DNA of 64,000 bases from Promicromonospora sp. MEB111 (GTDB taxonomy: Bacteria; Actinomycetota; Actinomycetes; Actinomycetales; Cellulomonadaceae): the NCBI RefSeq assembly GCF_030209445.1, contig NZ_JARVSD010000004.1, forward strand, positions 248,001 through 312,000, read 5' to 3'. The notes beneath the pieces are model-generated. The model saw nothing but the letters and a program-made list of their open reading frames with translations. It made no database searches and was not told the origin of the DNA. This document shows, one piece after another, positions 52,672 to 61,587 of the stretch; positions within the stretch are counted from its first letter, which is position 1; each line of letters starts with the position of its first letter. The position numbers were made by a program, and so were the translations under genes.

Positions 52672-53340
52672 TCATCGCAGGAACAGCTCGACCACCGGCA
52701 CGGCGACGTCGGGCCGCGCCGTGGGCAGGTGCAGCGTGAGGGTGCCGGGCGGCTGCCCGCCGGGCGTGGTGTTCCACGCCTTCTGGTCCGGGTCGGCGCG
52801 GGTGGCACGCAGCTCGGAGCCGTCGTGCAGGAGCTGTGCGTACCGGACCCGGTCGGCCAGCCCGCGCAGGTGCACGTGCGCGAACGGCCACGCGAACAGG
52901 TGCAGGTACAGCCGGTCGGCCCGCTGCGTGAGCACGACGCCGGGCGGCAGCCCTGGCGCGAGAGCCTCGGCCCGCACGGCCTCTGCCAGCTCCCCGACCA
53001 GGTCGCGGCCGCGCGTGCGCGCGATGGTGTAGTCGCTCACGGCGGAGTCCCACAGGGCGAAGCCGTCGTGGTGCTTGGTGGTCAGCACCACGTACCGCAT
53101 CCCGGCGTCCTTGGCGGCGCGGGCGATCGCGCGGGCGTCGAACAGGTCGGGATCGAACACCTCGGCGTAGCGCGCGTAGTGCTCGGCGGTCTGCCGCTCG
53201 TTGTTCAGCACCCACTCGTGCCGGGCGGCGGCCGAGTAGAGCCCGACGTGCACGAACAGGCCGAACCTGGCCTCGGTGAACCAGGCCCGGCCGGGTGCGA
53301 CGGTGGGGCGGGCTGGACCGGCTGGGACATGGCGGAGCAC
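52672..53340 (-). pseudogene. Alpha-L-fucosidase (GH29) remnant with internal in-frame deletion
   Basis: A 222-residue reading frame made of two distant parts of a GH29 fucosidase. Residues about 18-115 are the start of the barrel (WFTEARFGLFVHVGLYS, EHYARYAEVFDPDLFDA, YVVLTTKHHDGFALWDS, RDLVGELAEAVRAE). It then jumps to the C-terminal sandwich (GVVLTQRADRLYLHLFAWPF, RVRYAQLLHDGSELRAT, VAVPVVELFLR). About 200 residues, including the catalytic Asp region, are missing, yet the frame stays open. A GAGGAG-ATG start near 53331 lies in another frame, hinting at a second lesion. It cannot be an active fucosidase. Confidence 0.82.
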
Positions 53341-53506
53341 TCCTCGTCGAGTGGATGGTTCCGGAGCGGGGGAGAGGTATGACGTATCGCTCCGAGCGGG
53401 TCCCTCCTATCGGGTCCGATGGGTGATCTGCCCCTTCGGTTCCGGCCGGATCGGTGCTATAGATTGGATGAATCGCCATCGCAGCCGCTTCCCAGGAGGA
53501 GTACCC

Positions 53507-54273
53507 GTGACCACATCCCTTGAGTTCGACGGCGTCCGCGCCATCGTCACGGGAGGGCGTCCGGCATCGGCGCCGCCGTCGTGACCGCCCTGCTGCGGCG
53601 CGGCGCCCAGGTCGTCTCGATCGACCGCGCGTCCGACGGCGTGCCCGAGGGCGCCCACGGCGAGGTCGCCGACGTGACCGACGACGCCGGCGTCCGCGCC
53701 GCGGTCGAGGCCGCCGCCCAGCGACTGGGCGGCATCGACGTCGTCGTCAACAACGCCGGCATCGGCGCCCAGGGCACCGTCGCCGACAACGACGACGCCG
53801 AGTGGCTGCGCGTGCTGGACGTGAACGTGCTCGGCATCGTGCGCGTCACCCGCGCCGCGCTGCCGTACCTGCGCGAGTCCGAGCACGCCGCGGTGGTCAA
53901 CACGGCGTCGATCGCCTCGTGGACCGGGCTGCCGCAGCGCGCCCTGTACTCCGCCAGCAAGGGCGCCGTGCAGGCCCTCACGCTCGCGATGGCCGCCGAC
54001 CACGTGCGCGAGGGCATCCGTGTGACCTGCGTGAACCCCGGCACCGTTGACACGCCCTGGGTGGGCCGCCTGCTCGACGCCGCCGCGGACCCCGACGCCG
54101 AGCGCGCCGCCCTCGAGGCGCGTCAGCCCACCGGCCGCCTCGTGAGCCCCGAGGCCGTCGCCCACGCCGTCTGCTACCTCGCCAGCCCGCTCGCCACCGC
54201 GACCACGGGCACGGCGCTCGCGGTCGACGGCGGCATGCACGAGCTGCGCGTCCGCCCGCCCGAGCAGTCCTGA
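53507..54273 (+). pseudogene. Short-chain dehydrogenase (2-keto-3-deoxy-L-fuconate dehydrogenase-like), frameshifted
   Basis: Translation should start at GTG 53507, 6 nt after AGGAGGA. It reads MTTSLEFDGVRAIVTGG and then loses frame in a G-run at 53552-53557 (GGAGGGCG). One extra base there would restore TGGASGIGAAVVTALLRRG. Downstream the SDR is complete, with NNAGIGAQG, YSASKGAVQALTLAMA and PGTVDTPW, to 54273. Without correction only a 25-residue peptide or an internal start at 53581 lacking the cofactor loop could be made. A sequencing error in the G-run is possible. The neighbouring FAH hydrolase suggests oxidation of 2-keto-3-deoxy-L-fuconate. Confidence 0.8.
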
Positions 54274-54309
54274 ACGTGACCGCCCACCCGATCCGAGAAC
54301 GAGGACACG

Positions 54310-55161
54310 ATGCACCTGCTCCGCCTGGGCCCCGCCGGCCAGGAGATCCCCGCCGTCACCTCTGACGGCGTCACCTACGACCTGCGCCCGCTGACCGCCG
54401 ACGTCGACGGCGCGTTCCTCGCCGCCGACGGCGTGGCGCGCACCCGGACCGCCCTGGCCGCGGGGGAGCTGCCCGTGCTCGACGGCGCCGACGCGCTGCG
54501 CCGCGGGGCGCCGATCGCGCGGCCCGCCGCCGTCGTCTGCATCGGGCAGAACTACGCCGCGCACGCGCGCGAGTCCGGCGCGGAGCCGCCGCTCCTGCCG
54601 ATCATCTTCTTCAAGCACCCCAACACCGTGGCCGGGCCGGACGACGCCGTGCCGCTGCCGCCCGGCGCCGAGAAGGTGGACTGGGAGGTGGAGCTGGCGG
54701 TCGTGATCGGCCGGCGCGCGAGCTACCTGCCGTCCGTCGAGGCCGCGCGCGAGCACGTCGCGGGCTACACCGTGGTGGACGACGTCAGCGAGCGGGCGTG
54801 GCAGCTCGACGACTCCCTGGGCCAGTGGTCCAAGGGCAAGTGCGGCCCGGGGTTCCTGCCCACCGGCCCGGCGCTCGTGCCGGCCGACGAGGTGGACCCG
54901 GGCGGGCTGCGGCTGCGCTCCTTCGTGAACGGGGAGCCGCGGCAGGACTCGTCGACGGCCGACATGATCTTCGACGTCGCCGCGATCGTGCACCACCTGT
55001 CGCAGTACATGGCGCTGGAGCCGGGCGACCTGATCTGCACGGGCACGCCCGAGGGCGTCGCCCTCTCGGGACGCTTCCCGTACCTGCGGGACGGCGACGA
55101 GGTCACCCTGGAGATCGAGAGCCTGGGCCGGCAGACCCACACCTTCACCTCCCTCTCCTAG
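54310..55161 (+). CDS. Fumarylacetoacetate hydrolase-family protein (2,4-diketo-3-deoxy-L-fuconate hydrolase-like)
   Basis: A 283-residue FAH enzyme. CIGQNYAAHARESGAEPPLLPIIFFKHPNTV begins the fold; metal-binding acids are in KVDWEVELAVVIG and GYTVVDDVSERAWQ; the C-terminal GDLICTGTPEGVALSG closes the site. All key residues are intact. Next to an SDR and a lactonase-type amidohydrolase, it probably cleaves 2,4-diketo-3-deoxy-L-fuconate to pyruvate and lactate, the last step of the non-phosphorylative L-fucose route (known pathway, local inference). Ribosome site GAACGAGGA. Confidence 0.88.
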   Translation: MHLLRLGPAGQEIPAVTSDGVTYDLRPLTADVDGAFLAADGVARTRTALAAGELPVLDGADALRRGAPIARPAAVVCIGQNYAAHARESGAEPPLLPIIFFKHPNTVAGPDDAVPLPPGAEKVDWEVELAVVIGRRASYLPSVEAAREHVAGYTVVDDVSERAWQLDDSLGQWSKGKCGPGFLPTGPALVPADEVDPGGLRLRSFVNGEPRQDSSTADMIFDVAAIVHHLSQYMALEPGDLICTGTPEGVALSGRFPYLRDGDEVTLEIESLGRQTHTFTSLS

Positions 55162-55167
55162 CAGGAC

Positions 55168-55211
55168 GTGTCAGACGCTCAGATCCCTCCAGGGATCTGA
55201 GCGTCTGACAC
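55168..55211. terminator. 21-bp perfect inverted repeat between convergent genes
   Basis: GTGTCAGACGCTCAGATCCC starts the left arm (55168-55188), which pairs perfectly over 21 bp with 55191-55211 around a 2-nt loop. It lies between the FAH gene and the convergent beta-helix remnant. Confidence 0.82.
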
Positions 55212-55216
55212 ATCGG

Positions 55217-56035
55217 TCAGAAGATGCTCATCTCGCCCGCCGGGCCCTGGCGGTAGGCCGTGAAGTAGCCCGGGGCCGCCAGCGGGTTGTTCGCCGTGTC
55301 GTCGAGGTAGCGCCACACCGGCTCGCCGTCCACGCGCAGCACCACGCGGATGCCGCCCGCGACGTCCACGGCGCCGAAGGTGACCTCGTGCGTCGAGTTC
55401 GGCTCGATCATCGTGTTGGGGAAGACGTCGATCATGAAGACGTCGATCTGGAGGATGTCGTCGCGGGCCGACGTCTCGATCACACGGTCGAGCACGGCCT
55501 GCTCGGTCACGGGGGAGAAGCCGTCGTAGGGCAGCTCCTTGCCGCCGGAGATCGTGGCGGTCTCGCCCGGGTAGGAGCGGTAGGTGACGGGCGCGGCGGC
55601 GGTACCCGAGTCCTCGGCGCCGAGGGTGAACGACGCCGAGCGCTCGTACGTGCCCTCCCGCAGGTAGACGGTCACGCCGTCGGCCGGGAGGTTGCCGGCC
55701 GTCCGGAGCGCGCGGATGGCGTCACGCGCCGCCTCCAGCGTGGCCAGGGGTGTGGTCCTCGTACCGGCGGCGCCGTCGTCGCCGTCCGGGGCGAGGTAGA
55801 TCGTGCCCTGCGCGCCCGGCGCGTGCGGGCCCTTGCCGGGCTTGCCGGGCTTGCCCGGCTTGCCGTGGCCCTTCCCGGGGCGCTTGTCGTTCCCCTTGTC
55901 GGTGGTGGTGGTGGCTGACGCGTGCTGGGCCCCGGTCTGCTGCGGGGCGGCCGTGGCGGCCGGGCCGGTGGTAGTCGCGCCGACGACGCACGTGGCGACG
56001 GCGGCGGCGAGCAGGGCTGACAGATGTCGCTTCAT
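55217..56035 (-). pseudogene. Secreted right-handed beta-helix glycosidase (GH141-like), internally deleted
   Basis: 272 residues. A signal peptide and a Lys/Gly/Pro linker (GKGHGKPGKPGKPGKG) precede the start of a beta-helix enzyme (TIYLAPDGDDGAAGTRTTPLATLEAARDAIRALR, VYLREGTYERSASFTL, ISGGKELPYDGFSPVTEQAVLDRVIETSARDDILQ). The chain then passes abruptly to what looks like the very C-terminus of a carbohydrate-binding sandwich (MIDVFPNTMIEPNSTHEVTF, GEPVWRYLDDTANNP, GPAGEMSIF). Whole enzymes of this kind are usually 600 residues or more. At the suspected junction GAAGACGTCGAT occurs twice with 15-nt period (55421-55432, 55436-55447). GH141 includes fucosidases, fitting the locus. Confidence 0.72.
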
Positions 56036-56155
56036 TGCGAGTGCTCCGACCTCTTCGGTGATGGTCACGGACTGCGGGTCGTCCTCGACCCGCGGCTGGC
56101 AGCGGGAGCGATGCCCGGTACCGTCGGACCCGTTCGTCACACGAGGGAGTGCTTC

Positions 56156-56827
56156 ATGACCAGCAGCGGTATCACCACCGGACAGGCCGCCGAACGACTC
56201 GTCTTCGTCGGGGACTCGATCACCGACGCCGGCCGTGACCGCGCGGACGCCGGGTCGCTCGGCGACGGCTACGTCAGCCTCGTCGCGGCCGACCTGCCCG
56301 GCGCCCAGGTGCGCAACGTCGGCATAGGCGGCGACCGTGCCGTCGACCTGGAGGCCCGCTGGGAACGCGACGTCGCCGGCACCGCGCCCGACGTGCTCAG
56401 CGTGTACGTGGGGGTCAACGACACGTGGCGCCGCTACGACAACGACGACCCCACGAGCGCCGAGGACTTCGAGGCCACCTACCTGCGGCTCCTGGACCGG
56501 GTGCCCGGCAGCCCGCGCCTGGTTCTCGTGGAGCCGTTCCTCCTGCCGGTGCGGCCGGAGCAGCGCGACTGGCTCGGCGACCTCGCGGGCAAGCGGGCGG
56601 TCGTCGCACGCCTGGCGGAGCAGGCGGGCGCCGCGCTGGTGCCCCTGCACTCCCTGCTCACGGCCGCTGCGGACGCGCTCGGCGGGACGGAGGGCGCCGT
56701 CGCCCTCGCCCCCGACGGCGTGCACCCCACGCCCGCGGGGTCACGAATCATCGCCGACGCCTGGCTCGCGGCCTACCGCTCCGGTGCACAAACGATTGTC
56801 GATAATGTCGCTAGGCTGGGCGGATGA
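56156..56827 (+). CDS. SGNH/GDSL hydrolase (intracellular esterase)
   Basis: A 223-residue SGNH hydrolase without signal peptide. VFVGDSITDAGRDR (Ser nucleophile), VRNVGIGGDRAVDL (block II Gly), VYVGVNDTWRRY (block III Asn) and APDGVHPTPAGSRI (Asp/His) are all intact. It may deacetylate sugars released by the secreted glycosidases. GAGGGAG precedes the ATG. Its end overlaps the GntR gene by 4 nt. Confidence 0.88.
   Translation: MTSSGITTGQAAERLVFVGDSITDAGRDRADAGSLGDGYVSLVAADLPGAQVRNVGIGGDRAVDLEARWERDVAGTAPDVLSVYVGVNDTWRRYDNDDPTSAEDFEATYLRLLDRVPGSPRLVLVEPFLLPVRPEQRDWLGDLAGKRAVVARLAEQAGAALVPLHSLLTAAADALGGTEGAVALAPDGVHPTPAGSRIIADAWLAAYRSGAQTIVDNVARLGG
56795..56817 (+). promoter_or_regulatory. 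gntR promoter with operator
   Basis: ATTGTCGATAAT (56795-56806), inside AACGATTGTCGATAATG, sits just before the TAGGCT -10 (56812-56817) of the GntR gene. The same AACGATTnTCGAT sequence occurs upstream of the binding-protein chimera at 60837-60823 (minus strand). Overlap with the -35 suggests autorepression. Confidence 0.7.
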
Positions 56828-57537
56828 CTGATGCGTTGAGCGGGATCTCGGGCCTCGAGCGCGGGCTGCTGTCCGACCAGATCTACGACCTGGTCAAGTC
56901 GATGATCAAGTCGTCGCAGCTGGCCCCGGGCGAGCAGCTCGTGGAGTCACAGCTGGCCCGCCGCCTGCGCGTGAGCCAGGCCCCCGTGCGCGACGCGCTC
57001 AAGCAGCTCGCGCACGAGGGCCTGGTGACGCACGTGCGGCACCAGGGCAACTTCGTGACCAAGCACTCCGACGAGGAGGCCCAGCAGGCCAAGCAGGCCC
57101 GCGTGGCGCTGGAGGCGCTCGCGGGCCGGCTCGCCTGCGGGCGGCTCACGGCCGAGACCCGGGCGCGGCTCGAGGAGTTCATCGTCGCCATGCACGGCAC
57201 GGTCGACGCGCAGGACCTGCCCGCGTTCCGCGAGCTCGACTTCGGGTTCCACCGCGCGGTCATCGAGGCCAGCGGCAACACCTACCTGCCGCGCATGTGG
57301 GACATCATCGAGCCGAGCCTGCGCTCGATGCACCTGCTCGGCGACCCCGAGTTCACCGGCGACTGGCACCAGGTGGCCGACTGGCACCGCAGCCTGCTCG
57401 ACGTCCTCGACGGCGGCGACGCAGACGCGGCCTCGGCCCTCTTCGAGGCACACGCCGCGGGGACCCTGCTCGACGCCGACGCCGACGGCCTCCAGAGCAA
57501 AACAGGACAAGCCGGGCTCACCCCCTCCGAAGGCTAG
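56824..57537 (+). CDS. GntR-family regulator, FadR/FCD subfamily
   Basis: A 237-residue regulator. The winged helix (about 15-80: LSDQIYDLVKSMIKSSQLAPGEQLVESQLARRLRVSQAPVRDALKQLAHEGLV) is followed by an all-helical FCD ligand domain with metal-binding His/Asp positions (ELDFGFHRAVIEASGN, DWHQVADWHRSLLDVL). FCD regulators commonly sense sugar acids; here L-fuconate or a related acid is a reasonable guess. A leaderless start (TAGGCT 6 nt before ATG) and operator precede it. Confidence 0.9.
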   Translation: MTDALSGISGLERGLLSDQIYDLVKSMIKSSQLAPGEQLVESQLARRLRVSQAPVRDALKQLAHEGLVTHVRHQGNFVTKHSDEEAQQAKQARVALEALAGRLACGRLTAETRARLEEFIVAMHGTVDAQDLPAFRELDFGFHRAVIEASGNTYLPRMWDIIEPSLRSMHLLGDPEFTGDWHQVADWHRSLLDVLDGGDADAASALFEAHAAGTLLDADADGLQSKTGQAGLTPSEG

Positions 57538-57568
57538 CCCGGCGAGGCATCCTCGTTACGATTCGCAT

Positions 57569-59275
57569 GTGAGATCGGGGTGGTTCGAGGAGGCGACGGC
57601 ACGCAGCGCCGTCGGCCACGAGGCCCGGACCGTCGCGTGGGAGGCCACGCCGCTCGGTCCGCCCAGCACGTGGCCGGAGTCCCTGCGGCATGCCGTGCGG
57701 CTGTGCTTCTCCACGCGGTTCCCCGTGATGATGGTCTGGGGCCCGGACCTGACGCTGATCTACAACGACGGCTACCGGGACATGCTCGGCACGGCCAAGC
57801 ACCCCGCCGCACTGGGTGCGTCGGCCCGGGTCGTGTGGGCCGAGATCTGGGACGACATCGGTCCGCTGTTCGACACGGTGCTGGCCACGGGGAGGCCGAC
57901 GCTCAACGAGGACCTGTACCTGCTGATGAACCGGTCGGGGTACGCCGAGGAGACCTACTTCACCTTCTCCTACAGCCCGCTGCTGGACGACGACGGGCGC
58001 GTCGTGGGCGTGCTGGACATCGCGACCGAGACCACGCGCGCGGTCGTGAACCAGCGGCGGCTGGCCCTGCTGGGTGAGGTGCACGGCGTCCTGCCCGGCA
58101 CGTTCACCGACCTGCGGACCTTCGCCCAGCCCGTGATCGGCCTGCTGGCGGCGAGCCCGGACGTCGCCCGGGTCGCCCTCTACGCCGCGAGCGGTCCCGA
58201 GGTGGTCCTGGAGGCCGGGGACGAGCCGGAGCCCAGCGAGCTGCGCCTGGTCGTCCGGGCACTGCGCTCCGGTCGGCGTCAGGTGGTCCCGGGCACGGTG
58301 GTCAAGCCCGTGCGGTCCGGCCAGGGCAGCGGCGTCATCGCCGCGCTCGTCCTGCGCGGCACCGCGGCACGGCCGTGGGACGCGGACCATGCCCGCTTCA
58401 TGGTGGTCCTGTCGACCACGGTCACCTCCGCGCTGCGCGACGTCGTCCGCCGCCGGGTGCAGGACGACGCGCTGCGGCTGAGGGCCGTGCACTCCGAGGA
58501 GGAGCGGGCCCGGGCCTCCGAGGTGTCCCTGGCGCTGCAGCGGGCCGTGCTGACCGACCCGCCGCGGCTGGACGACCTGGAGGTGGTCGTGCACTACCAG
58601 CCCGCCGCCGTCGAGCGGAACATCGGCGGCGACTGGTACGACGCGTTCACGCGGCGCGACGGCGCGACCACCGTGGTGATCGGCGACGTGATCGGGCACG
58701 ACCTGGACGCCGCCGTGGCGATGGGGCAGATCAGGTCGCTCGTGCGGGCCATCGGGTACGACAGCCAGGAGACGCCCGCACGGGTGCTGGAGCGGGTCGA
58801 CGCCGCCATCGACGGCCTAGCCCTGGGAAGCTCCGCCACGGCCACCGCACTGGTGGCGTGCGTCGAGCGGCCGGCCCGGCCGGGCGGGGACGAGGCCCGC
58901 ACGGTGCGCTGGTCCAGCGCGGGTCACCTGCCACCGATCCTGGTCCGGGCCGACGGCACGACGGAGGTCCTGCGGATCCGCAACGACCTGCTGCTCGGCA
59001 TGGATCCGGGGACCCTGCGCCGCGACCACGTGACCGACCTCCGGCCTGGTGACACGCTGGTGCTCTACACCGACGGCCTGATCGAGACGCGGGACGACCG
59101 CCTGCGCGCCCGCCTGGACAAGCTCGCCGAGGTGCTCGAGGGAACGCAGACCGCGGACCTGGGGACCGTCGTCGAGACGGCCCTGAGCGGCATGCTCTCC
59201 GTCACGGCCGACGACGACGTCGCGATCGTGATGGTGCGGTGCAGCGCCCGGCCGGGCGCTCCCGTCAACCGGTGA
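57569..59275 (+). CDS. PAS/GAF-containing PP2C-type serine phosphatase (SpoIIE/RsbU-like)
   Basis: A 568-residue signalling protein. An N-terminal PAS domain (about 25-155: GPPSTWPESLRHAVRLCFSTRFPVMMVWGPDLTLIYNDGYRDML) and a GAF-like region (about 165-310) precede a PP2C SpoIIE domain (about 340-560) with NIGGDWYDAF, VIGDVIGHDLDAA, SSAGHLPPILV, LVLYTDGLIE and DDDVAIVMVR. Metal-binding Asp residues are present. It likely dephosphorylates an anti-sigma-factor antagonist in a stress cascade. TACGAT (57557-57562) is 6 nt before the GTG: leaderless. Its end overlaps the convergent amidohydrolase by 11 nt. Confidence 0.9.
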   Translation: MRSGWFEEATARSAVGHEARTVAWEATPLGPPSTWPESLRHAVRLCFSTRFPVMMVWGPDLTLIYNDGYRDMLGTAKHPAALGASARVVWAEIWDDIGPLFDTVLATGRPTLNEDLYLLMNRSGYAEETYFTFSYSPLLDDDGRVVGVLDIATETTRAVVNQRRLALLGEVHGVLPGTFTDLRTFAQPVIGLLAASPDVARVALYAASGPEVVLEAGDEPEPSELRLVVRALRSGRRQVVPGTVVKPVRSGQGSGVIAALVLRGTAARPWDADHARFMVVLSTTVTSALRDVVRRRVQDDALRLRAVHSEEERARASEVSLALQRAVLTDPPRLDDLEVVVHYQPAAVERNIGGDWYDAFTRRDGATTVVIGDVIGHDLDAAVAMGQIRSLVRAIGYDSQETPARVLERVDAAIDGLALGSSATATALVACVERPARPGGDEARTVRWSSAGHLPPILVRADGTTEVLRIRNDLLLGMDPGTLRRDHVTDLRPGDTLVLYTDGLIETRDDRLRARLDKLAEVLEGTQTADLGTVVETALSGMLSVTADDDVAIVMVRCSARPGAPVNR

Positions 59276-60137
59276 TCCCGTAGAGGCGCGCGGCGGTACC
59301 TGACCACAGGGCCGACACCGCGGCGTCGTCGAGCCGGGGGAGCGCGCGGGCGGTGCGCCCGACGACCTCCGCGTACGGCGCGACCCGGGCGGACATCGGC
59401 CAGTCGCTGCCGAACAGCAGACGCTCCGGCCCGAGCAGGTCGACGGCGGCGCGGGCGATCAGTGCGACCCGGCCGGCGTCGGCCGGGCCCGCCGTGTGGA
59501 GGCCGGAGAGCTTGGCGTGCACGCGCGGCCGCGCGGCGACGTCCGCCAGCGCGGCGCGCCACGCCCCGTCGGGCGCCCCCGTACCGAGACCCAGGTGGCA
59601 GACGACGACGTCGAGCGCCGGGTGGCGGTCGGCCAGGGCCGCGACGGCGGGGAGCTGCTCGGGGCGCACGAGCGTCTCCAGCACCCGGCCGGTGCCGGCG
59701 AGCCCGGCGCACAGGGCGTCCAGCCCGGCGACGTCGGACAGGTCGGCGGCCCCGCCCGGCACGGCGAGCCGGACGCCGGCGACGGGTACGCCGTCGTCGA
59801 GGAGCGGTTGGGCCATGCCTGCCCAGGCGGCGGGGCCGCCGGGGCGGGTGTCGTACTGGAGCACCACCGGCCCGGGCAACGGGCCGTGCCCGGCGGCCCG
59901 GGCGGCGAGCCAGCGTGCCTCGCCCTCGGTGTCCGCGGCCTGGACGGCGACGGCGGCGCGCACGGGTACCGGGGACGTCGCCGTAGCGCGGGCCAGGTCG
60001 TCCGGGCCGACGCGCCGCGGCAGGCCCAGGCGCTCGGCGAACCAGGAGATCCGCATCGCGCCGGTGTCCCAGAGGTGCACGTGCGCGTCGACGATCCCGT
60101 CCGGAACCGCCCCGCCCGAGGAGAGGCCCGCGCTCAT
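59265..60137 (-). CDS. Amidohydrolase family protein (L-fuconolactonase/L-rhamnonolactonase-like)
   Basis: A 290-residue TIM-barrel amidohydrolase_2 enzyme. IVDAHVHLWDTGAMRISWF is the metal-binding HxH strand; VVVCHLGLG, HAKLSGLHT and LLFGSDWPMS supply the later His and Asp. Length and motifs match lactonases of the L-fucose and L-rhamnose oxidative routes. ATG overlaps the stop of the upstream chimera by 4 nt, preserving the coupling once made with an aldo/keto reductase (fucose dehydrogenase). The gene looks intact. Confidence 0.85.
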   Translation of the reverse strand: MSAGLSSGGAVPDGIVDAHVHLWDTGAMRISWFAERLGLPRRVGPDDLARATATSPVPVRAAVAVQAADTEGEARWLAARAAGHGPLPGPVVLQYDTRPGGPAAWAGMAQPLLDDGVPVAGVRLAVPGGAADLSDVAGLDALCAGLAGTGRVLETLVRPEQLPAVAALADRHPALDVVVCHLGLGTGAPDGAWRAALADVAARPRVHAKLSGLHTAGPADAGRVALIARAAVDLLGPERLLFGSDWPMSARVAPYAEVVGRTARALPRLDDAAVSALWSGTAARLYGITG

Positions 60138-60727
60138 GCCGGTGCCGGTGCGGACCGCGCGGCGTCGAGCGCGGCCCACAGGTCCTCGGGCACGTCGGCC
60201 GCCGCGGCGTCGGCGAAGACGTCGACCTCGGCCGGGGTGCGCGCCCCCACCACGACGGCCTCGACCCCCGCGACCCGCAGCGGGTACCGCGCCGCCGCCT
60301 GCAGGGAGTGGCTGGTCATCCAGTCGCCGCCCGTCTGGATCGGGGTCCAGCCGGCGTCCTTGAGCTTGCCGAGCGCGGCGGTGAGCTCCTCCACGGTGCC
60401 CGGCGTCTCGGTGATGCCCGCCTCCTCGAAGGCGGTCTTGTTGTAGAACCACAGGCTCTGCAGCTGGAACCCGATGCCGGCCATGTAGTACTTGCCGTCG
60501 ATCGAGTACTGGTCGGCCAGGGGGCCGCCGGTCGCCCAGTCGTACTGCGACAGGTCCACCAGCTCGGGCGCCAGGTCGACCGTGGGCGGCATCGACTGCA
60601 CGACGTCGGGCGCGTCGCCCGCGGTCAGCAGCCGGGGCGGGGCGGCGGCCACGCCCTCGGCGCCGGCGAGGGTGAGGGCGGCCGCCGTGAGCGTGCCCAC
60701 GCTCGCCAGGGTGCGGTGCTTGATCAT
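60134..60727 (-). pseudogene. In-frame chimera: sugar ABC binding-protein fragment fused to aldo/keto reductase tail
   Basis: 197 residues in three pieces. A lipoprotein-type signal (MIKHRTLASVGTLTAAALTLAG) lacks the Cys and the usual first 50 or so mature residues. A middle section of an SBP family 1 protein follows (LLTAGDAPDVVQSM, YSIDGKYYMAGIGFQLQSLWFYNKTAFEEAGI, VEELTAALGKLKDAGWTPIQTGGDWMT). From about residue 145 it becomes the C-terminus of an aldo/keto reductase (AARYPLRVAGVEAVVVGARTPAEVDVFA, PEDLWAALDAAR). The deletion would have removed the rest of the SBP, permeases and most of the reductase (L-fucose dehydrogenase) while keeping frame. No known activity can be expected. Confidence 0.8.
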
Positions 60728-60822
60728 CGTTGATCCTCTCGGGTTGCCGCAGCGTTCCAGGGGGTGCTGTGCGTTGGCCTGGGCGTACGGCCTACGACTG
60801 TGGAGTGACGTCTCGGGGAGAG

Positions 60823-60838
60823 TAATCGATAATCGTTG
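60823..60838 (-). promoter_or_regulatory. GntR operator upstream of binding-protein chimera
   Basis: On the minus strand AACGATTATCGATTAC (60838-60823) matches AACGATTGTCGATAAT at 56791-56806 in 13 of 16 positions. TACTCT follows directly and could be the -10. It marks this as the start of the former transport operon controlled by the GntR protein. Confidence 0.65.
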
Positions 60839-60885
60839 GATTGGGAAGAAGGTGGGTCCCGTCCCACGCCGCATAGGCTCGCGGG

Positions 60886-61587
60886 GTGAACCGGACCGAC
60901 CGCATGTACGCGATCGTCGAGGAGCTGCGGGCCGTCTCGCCGCGTCCGCGGAGCGCGTCGTGGCTGGCAGATCGGTTCGAGGTCAGCCGGCGGACCATCG
61001 AGCGCGACATCAGCGCGCTGCAGCAGACCGGTGTGCCCGTCTGGGCCGAGCCGGGCCGTACCGGGGGCTACTGCCTCGACCGCGCACGGACGCTCCCGCC
61101 GGTGAACTTCAGCCCCGACGAGGCGGTCGCCGTCGCCGTCGCGCTCGGCGGCCTGGCCGGGACGCCGTTCGCGGGCGCGGGCGCGACGGCGCTCCGCAAG
61201 ATCCTCGCGGCCATGCGGGACGACGACGCGACCGCCGCTCACGACCTCGCCGGACGCGTGCACCTCCTCGGGGCGCCGCCGCAGGTGCCACCGGTCCCCG
61301 CCGTCCTCACCGACGCGATCTCAGCACGCCGCGTCCTGCGCCTGCGGTACACCGACCGGGCGGGCGCCGCGACCACGCGCGACGTCGAGCCGCTCGGCTT
61401 CGTCGGGTCGTCCACGGCGTGGTACCTGCTGGCCTGGTGCCGGCTGCGCGACGGGATCCGCGCCTTCCGCCTCGACCGCGTCGACCGGGTCACGGCCACC
61501 AGCGAGCGCGCACCCCGGCGGGTGGTCCGGCCGGAGGACGTCCAGGTGCCCGACGGTGACCTGCGCACCCTGACGTTCCTGGGCTGA
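60886..61587 (+). CDS. WYL-domain transcriptional regulator
   Basis: A 233-residue HTH-11/WYL protein. The N-terminal HTH reads RMYAIVEELRAVSPRPRSASWLADRFEVSRRTIERDISALQQTGVPVWAEPGRTGGYCL; the WYL domain (about 145-215) has the conserved SSTAWYLLAWCRLRDGIRAFRLDRVDRV. WYL domains bind nucleic acid or nucleotide-like ligands. TAGGCT (60874-60879) is 6 nt before GTG: leaderless. Targets unknown; the VOC gene downstream is a candidate. Confidence 0.88.
   Translation: MNRTDRMYAIVEELRAVSPRPRSASWLADRFEVSRRTIERDISALQQTGVPVWAEPGRTGGYCLDRARTLPPVNFSPDEAVAVAVALGGLAGTPFAGAGATALRKILAAMRDDDATAAHDLAGRVHLLGAPPQVPPVPAVLTDAISARRVLRLRYTDRAGAATTRDVEPLGFVGSSTAWYLLAWCRLRDGIRAFRLDRVDRVTATSERAPRRVVRPEDVQVPDGDLRTLTFLG

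Follow-up and report, generated by a model that had tools for sequence, protein, structure and literature searches.

Apparent early decay of an accessory sugar-catabolic island in Promicromonospora sp. MEB111

Gene content and lesions of the locus

The window analyzed here is a 64,000-nucleotide stretch of the genome of Promicromonospora sp. MEB111 (genome G000, contig C33, G000:C33:248001-312000). The assembly comprises 6.23 Mb in 35 contigs and is 99.43% complete. The window carries a sugar-catabolic locus with glycosidase, dehydrogenase, hydrolase, lactonase and transport genes, several of which are broken. A comparison set of 13 genomes of the genus (G000 and 12 others) includes a sister genome, G010, whose contig C12 (locus L109) holds the same locus intact and collinear with the window. 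Relative to G010, the single genome that served as the template for the deletion sizes, the window copy has four large deletions (663, 3,099, 156 and 6,118 bp) and two 1-nt deletions. It is probably an accessory island for sugar catabolism, a spare one, whose decay is local and has only just begun; the genome has three such parallel loci. Domains were assigned by Pfam and NCBIfam profile matches, and by PDB sequence matches for the β-helix enzyme. The features of the locus, with SBP for the sugar substrate-binding protein and AKR for the aldo/keto reductase, are as follows.

52672..53330, minus strand: remnant of a GH29 α-L-fucosidase gene, middle half gone; matches only positions 27-156 of the 345 of profile PF01120
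52964..52965: junction J1, where 663 bp (221 of 440 codons) of the GH29 gene are deleted relative to G010
53290..53291: 1-nt deletion near GH29 codon 14, from the alignment to G010 with the G004 sequence alongside
53508..54273, plus strand: SDR-family dehydrogenase gene with a 1-nt deletion near 53556 (GGGG to GGG, window versus G009)
54310..55161, plus strand: FAH-family hydrolase, intact (PF01557; 97.9% to G010 over 281 aa; ratio of nonsynonymous to synonymous substitution rates, dN/dS, 0.085)
55217..56035, minus strand: remnant of a GH141-like parallel β-helix enzyme gene; first ~218 and last ~78 codons kept
55441..55445: junction J2, where 3,099 bp (1,033 of 1,329 codons) of the β-helix gene are deleted; 4-nt microhomology GTCG
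56156..56827, plus strand: GDSL esterase, intact (PF13472/PF00657; residues 2-221 of the 221 of the G010 protein matched)
56824..57537, plus strand: FCD-type GntR regulator, intact (PF07729, PF00392; dN/dS 0.09)
57569..59275, plus strand: SpoIIE-type phosphatase, intact (PF07228; same position in G006, G007 and G009)
59265..60137, minus strand: lactonase-type amidohydrolase, intact (PF04909)
60134..60727, minus strand: in-frame chimera of the SBP N-terminal part and an AKR tail; its stop overlaps the lactonase start
60298..60299: junction J3, where 6,118 bp are deleted and SBP codon 195 is fused in frame to AKR codon 280 of 330
60661..60668: junction J4, where 156 bp (52 codons, 22-73) of the SBP gene are deleted
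60886..61587, plus strand: WYL-domain regulator, intact, divergent from the SBP gene (PF13280, PF08279; 94.9% to G010 over 233 aa)

The PF01120 test shows an incomplete catalytic domain in the GH29 remnant. The 1-nt deletion at ~53,290 places the conserved native ATG (53330-53328) out of frame, and the visible frame begins at an upstream GTG. The open frame of the SDR gene starts at 53581 and the N-terminal part is absent, while the gene is full length in G010 (257 aa) and G009. The J3 deletion removes the rest of the SBP gene, four whole genes (two ABC permeases, a 660-aa protein and an RraA-like protein) and AKR codons 1-279; the SBP codons lost at J4 include what we take to be the lipobox Cys. 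The three deletions confined to single genes (663, 3,099 and 156 bp) are all multiples of 3. The FAH, lactonase, GDSL, FCD-GntR and WYL genes are stop-free and match their G010 counterparts over nearly the whole length. All of the lesions lie in glycosidase, catabolic or transport genes, and the SpoIIE-type gene in the middle is untouched.

The original prediction had described a GH29 gene without about 200 central residues, a GH141-like enzyme without most of its body, an SBP fused to a reductase tail and a frameshifted SDR gene, next to an intact regulator, hydrolase and lactonase. Each of these descriptions agrees with the alignments to G010 and, for the SDR gene, to G009. The list of four damaged parts was nevertheless incomplete, as the 156-bp SBP deletion and the GH29 1-nt deletion had been overlooked. 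The further statement that the broken genes mostly keep their frames is borne out by the large deletions; the SDR gene and the native GH29 start are exceptions to it.

The palindrome that follows the FAH gene at 55163-55213 is a member of an inverted-repeat family scattered over the genome. Matches at ~79-92% identity occur in more than 30 places, most of them on both strands; further copies are present in G009 and G010, and a strict pattern matches 5 places. It looks like a terminator-type repeat family.

The intact sister locus and variation at the site

The G010 locus begins with genes for GH29 (440 aa), SDR (257), the FAH hydrolase (281), the β-helix enzyme (1,329 aa), the GDSL esterase and FCD-GntR. 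It continues with the SpoIIE-type phosphatase, the lactonase, the AKR (330; PF00248), the RraA-like protein, the 660-aa protein, two permeases, the SBP (419) and the WYL regulator. The GH29 protein covers PF01120 positions 27-344 of 345. The β-helix enzyme, for which 'GH141-like' is the label of the original prediction, has Beta_helix and Big_2 domains, and its best PDB sequence matches include a parallel β-helix protein (9rx2) and the glycoside hydrolase BT_1002 (5mqp). The 660-aa protein (L109:4448-6430) matches no Pfam or NCBIfam model and has a 49% identical relative in one of the parallel loci of G000 (contig C32, described below); it is possibly an undescribed carbohydrate-active enzyme.

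In G006 and G007, the SpoIIE-type gene stands alone between an MFS and a tyrS gene and no island is present. At the same site G009 has the SpoIIE-type gene with intact SDR, FAH and GDSL frames only. Thus, the SpoIIE-type phosphatase is the resident gene of the site and the remaining genes form an accessory island. The compact SDR-FAH-GDSL trio of G009 (L113:4131-6490) is accompanied by no other catabolic genes and represents either a reduced or an ancestral form. A search for plasmids carrying the locus returned 10 records, each a partial match at 60-80% identity.

Full-length GH29 genes also occur in G004, where a scaffold gap divides the gene between two contig pieces, and in four loci of other genera, Isoptericola and Krasilnikoviella. 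G004 provides a second template that is usable gene by gene only, since its scaffolds contain N gaps and do not give a reliable gene order. On its contigs C170 and C104 (L111, L112), five 100-N gaps connect parts of the locus that are out of order, an arrangement suggestive of faulty scaffolding. The β-helix and SBP genes are comparable only with G010 and G004, and the locus AKR only with G010. The original prediction had proposed comparison with the syntenic locus of close relatives as a check. The outcome is an intact, collinear G010 locus and, among the matches listed for the 12 remaining genus genomes, none that spans the deletion junctions of the window.

Extent of the damage

Comparison of C33 with 440 kb of the G010 contig gave 23 collinear blocks covering 162 kb, separated by 22 gaps. 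Five of the gaps are clean losses in C33, namely the four at the locus and a single 1,467-bp loss with both ends between genes. Besides those four, nine gaps, the 1,467-bp one included, were inspected one by one, which brings the coverage to 13 of the 22; the other nine are smaller or two-sided. As judged by the ends of open reading frames (ORFs), eight of them look intergenic, one of these (242-250 kb) being ambiguous; the ninth is gene-internal, ~120-130 bp long, and the shorter version is that of G010.

A gene-by-gene check on contigs C33 and C7 matched 168 sister genes at ≥75%. Large missing interiors were found in 3 of the 168 (GH29, β-helix, AKR), all in the locus; the SBP gene is a fourth case that falls below the match threshold owing to its own gap. 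In the sister-to-window direction 17 of the 168 genes were flagged, four in the locus (GH29, SDR, β-helix, AKR) and 13 outside. Judged by eye, the outside flags reflect over-extended starts or terminal stops, and none has a large missing interior. One of the 13, a 193-residue protein matched at coverage 0.72, is without its first 54 residues. Two others (741-aa and 527-aa ORFs) are possible real frameshifts, although identity is only 71-84% in their first parts and 95-96% over the remainder. In the reverse direction, 6 of 81 and 7 of 96 genes carried flags; one of these, with coverage 0.10, lies near C33:250,000, the site already described as ambiguous. An alternative version of the check gave 14 odd genes of 98, and 19 of 99 in reverse, mostly with a single stop in an over-extended start. 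A general assembly fault is thereby rejected for C33 and C7, where large gene-internal losses are confined to the locus.

The missing GH29 and β-helix pieces have no match elsewhere in the G000 genome, and the 6.1-kb piece lost at J3 finds only 66-74% paralogs and short fragments. The possibility that the missing pieces sit on other contigs is therefore rejected, the genome search having returned only distant paralogs or fragments.

Selection and age of the damage

dN/dS was calculated for the retained codons of the GH29, β-helix, SBP and AKR genes. Between G000 and G010 the remnants give 0.18 (0.12-0.26), the intact locus genes 0.18 (0.14-0.22) and core neighbors 0.24 (0.20-0.31). The G010-G004 pair yields 0.09 (0.05-0.15) for these remnant codons and 0.16 (0.12-0.22) for the intact genes. 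The ratio may thus have risen mildly on the G000 side, most clearly in the β-helix remnant, with 0.29 (0.17-0.46) versus 0.12 for G010-G004. The GH29 remnant compared with the four Isoptericola/Krasilnikoviella orthologs has dN/dS of 0.10-0.21, and the intact orthologs compared with one another and with G010/G004 have 0.08-0.23. Because the remnant values equal those of intact genes, the damage is either young or absent from the cell, and the dN/dS data alone fit both. In the 689 retained codons, one of them the stop, 0.5 nonsense mutations and 2.1 indels are expected per 0.01 neutral substitutions/site at an assumed indel rate. By hand reckoning from the two small lesions, neutral divergence since the onset of decay is roughly 1-2% at most.

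Junction homology and the phase of short repeats

With the sister sequence as proxy, the longest in-register exact matches at the four junctions are 4, 4, 2 and 3 nt; the control has a median of 2 and a 90th percentile of 4. Junction identity is 14, 11, 10 and 10 of 25, versus a control mean of 8.2. Repeat-mediated collapse is disfavored by in-register homology of ≤4 nt at the junctions. Since the homology is weak, a mechanism in which homology drives the deletions is one that we infer.

Within the locus genes the in-phase share of short repeats is 46-52% for repeats of ≥3 nt and 53-64% for those of ≥4 nt. For repeats of ≥4 nt, the share is 53% in 62 G010 genes, 44% in 11 E. coli genes and 48% in 8 phage T4 genes, compared with 33% in shuffled sequence. 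The phase bias is thus strongest, at the lengths compared, in this GC-rich genome and is present also in AT-rich T4. Because short repeats in the locus genes fall in phase about half the time or more, frame-keeping requires no special selection and is weak evidence of it.

Codon-position bias would make short repeats in a gene fall mostly in phase. Where that bias is strong, in-frame large deletions and fusions should be much commoner than 1 in 3, if deletions run between short repeats. Hence, an open frame across a deletion should not, on its own, be taken to indicate a functional product or selection in favor of new proteins. A broader and rather doubtful extension of this argument is that composition alone biases large-deletion decay toward in-frame events, such that dying genes pass through shortened or chimeric open frames and offer a selection-free supply of short proteins. 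The present locus, with 4 of 4 large events in frame, may be one example, and its weak junction homology counts against that.

Parallel loci

G000 has two further loci of similar gene set, on contigs C7 and C32. The C7 locus carries near full-length, stop-free AKR, SBP, lactonase, FAH, SDR and two permease genes and looks intact; an enolase-superfamily gene lies near it, at 128.5 kb. The C32 locus has SDR, FAH, AKR, RraA-like, 660-aa-type, permease and SBP genes. Its lactonase gene (L118:11519-12212) appears split over two frames, and this second parallel locus may also be eroding. The broken GH29 gene of the window is the sole PF01120 match in G000. Across the genus, PF01120 matches occur in 6 of the 13 genomes and are absent from 7. 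In G005, another species of the genus, two adjacent matches (G005:C13:82003-82964) each account for one half of the GH29 profile and may represent a frameshifted gene.

Pathway assignment

The gene set of the intact sister locus suggests an importer together with oxidative, non-phosphorylating degradation of a 6-deoxy or related sugar, presumably fed by the fucosidase and the β-helix glycosidase. L-fucose is a plausible substrate. The original prediction had labeled the window locus as an L-fucose route, and the gene families are plausible for it. The NCBIfam scores, however, are far under the cut-offs (103.7 bits versus 400 for the lactonase with NF052480, and 230 versus 500 for the FAH hydrolase with NF053535), and no L-fuconate or other sugar-acid dehydratase was recognized among the locus genes scanned, enolase-superfamily genes being present elsewhere in the genome, one of them beside the C7 locus. 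In the window, only the last ~51 AKR codons are left for the putative L-fucose 1-dehydrogenase step, and the SDR-family match for the 4-dehydrogenase step is frameshifted. The window is left with no complete route.

Interpretation

Ongoing pathway loss was one of three options offered by the original prediction and is the best supported, given the full-length forms in G010, the lack of any listed match across the junctions and the apparently intact C7 locus. With a C7 locus that is presumably able to carry the flux, the window copy may recently have come under relaxed selection. Deletions and small indels would then accumulate, and short homologies may have set the positions of the large ones. 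The stop of the fused SBP-reductase frame still lies on the lactonase start, and expression of the downstream intact genes may persist.

Several points weigh against decay of a spare island. Every deletion size rests on the single sister genome. Relaxed selection on the remnants was sought by dN/dS and showed no clear sign beyond the mild rise (0.18 versus 0.09). For young decay the spectrum is deletion-heavy, with four deletions of more than 150 bp versus two small indels and no nonsense mutation. The frame is kept in 4 of 4 large events, for which chance gives 1/81 with random phase and ~0.06-0.12 with the measured phase shares. Finally, the junction homology hardly exceeds the control.

A variant compatible with decay places its cause in ecology: the strain would no longer meet fucosylated glycans, and redundancy would not be the reason for the loss. 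The broken state of the only GH29 gene in the genome speaks for this variant, yet two similar loci remain, the one on C7 apparently complete, and the strain can probably still use the free sugar. We regard the variant as less likely than not.

A local assembly error is unlikely. According to this explanation the strain has full-length genes, and assembly or gap-closing dropped four pieces. The remnants do look constrained, as intact genes would, few small lesions accompany the large ones, and the G004 assembly also breaks in GH29, ~30 bp from J1, hinting at a hard-to-assemble spot. Assembler overlaps, however, are far longer than 4 nt, and in-register homology at every junction, with the sister as proxy, stays within that length. 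Nor did the checks of C33 and C7 reveal a comparable large deletion within a gene outside the locus, the missing pieces are absent from the other contigs, the two 1-nt lesions are separate events in neighboring genes, and the completeness of the genome in its 35 contigs also argues against such an error. Repeated assembly collapse, another of the three options, is disfavored on the grounds of junction homology, the restriction of losses to the locus on two contigs and the two separate 1-nt lesions.

The remaining option, in which the shortened and chimeric frames encode new proteins that function and selection keeps them open, agrees with the 4 of 4 in-frame events and the low remnant dN/dS, but it finds no positive support and is very improbable, as the GH29 frame lacks its middle half and has its native start out of frame, the SBP lacks the lipobox, its second half and the permeases, the low dN/dS is explained by constraint on full-length ancestors (0.09 for the same codons between G010 and G004), no relative examined has the same junctions, and the phase bias explains part of the frame-keeping.

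Comparison with known systems

The non-phosphorylating L-fucose pathway designated route 3 proceeds, according to PMC11199699, through the steps FucA, FucB, FucC, FucF and FucG. The G010 locus resembles route 3 in its AKR, amidohydrolase lactonase, SDR, FAH hydrolase, GH29 and ABC importer, and differs in that no dehydratase (FucC) was recognized among the locus genes scanned and the family models score under cut-off. The window copy differs further, being without a complete AKR, SDR, importer or GH29.

The GH29-SDR-AKR-FAH groups of Isoptericola and Krasilnikoviella (L029, L031, L032, L033) share with the window a GH29 gene on the opposite strand beside SDR and FAH, and their proteins are 85-90% identical. 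Unlike the window, they have a near full-length GH29 and a different AKR (~50% identical) between SDR and FAH.

Recent pseudogenization of redundant accessory catabolic clusters is ordinary in bacteria. Decay of a spare island in the window is like it in the broken neighboring genes, the intact sister orthologs, the redundancy and the lack of shared truncated forms among the genomes seen. It differs in that large deletions outnumber small lesions and keep the frame. No new mechanism is needed, and the case is most likely one of ordinary early gene loss in which the intact sister copy makes each step of decay readable.

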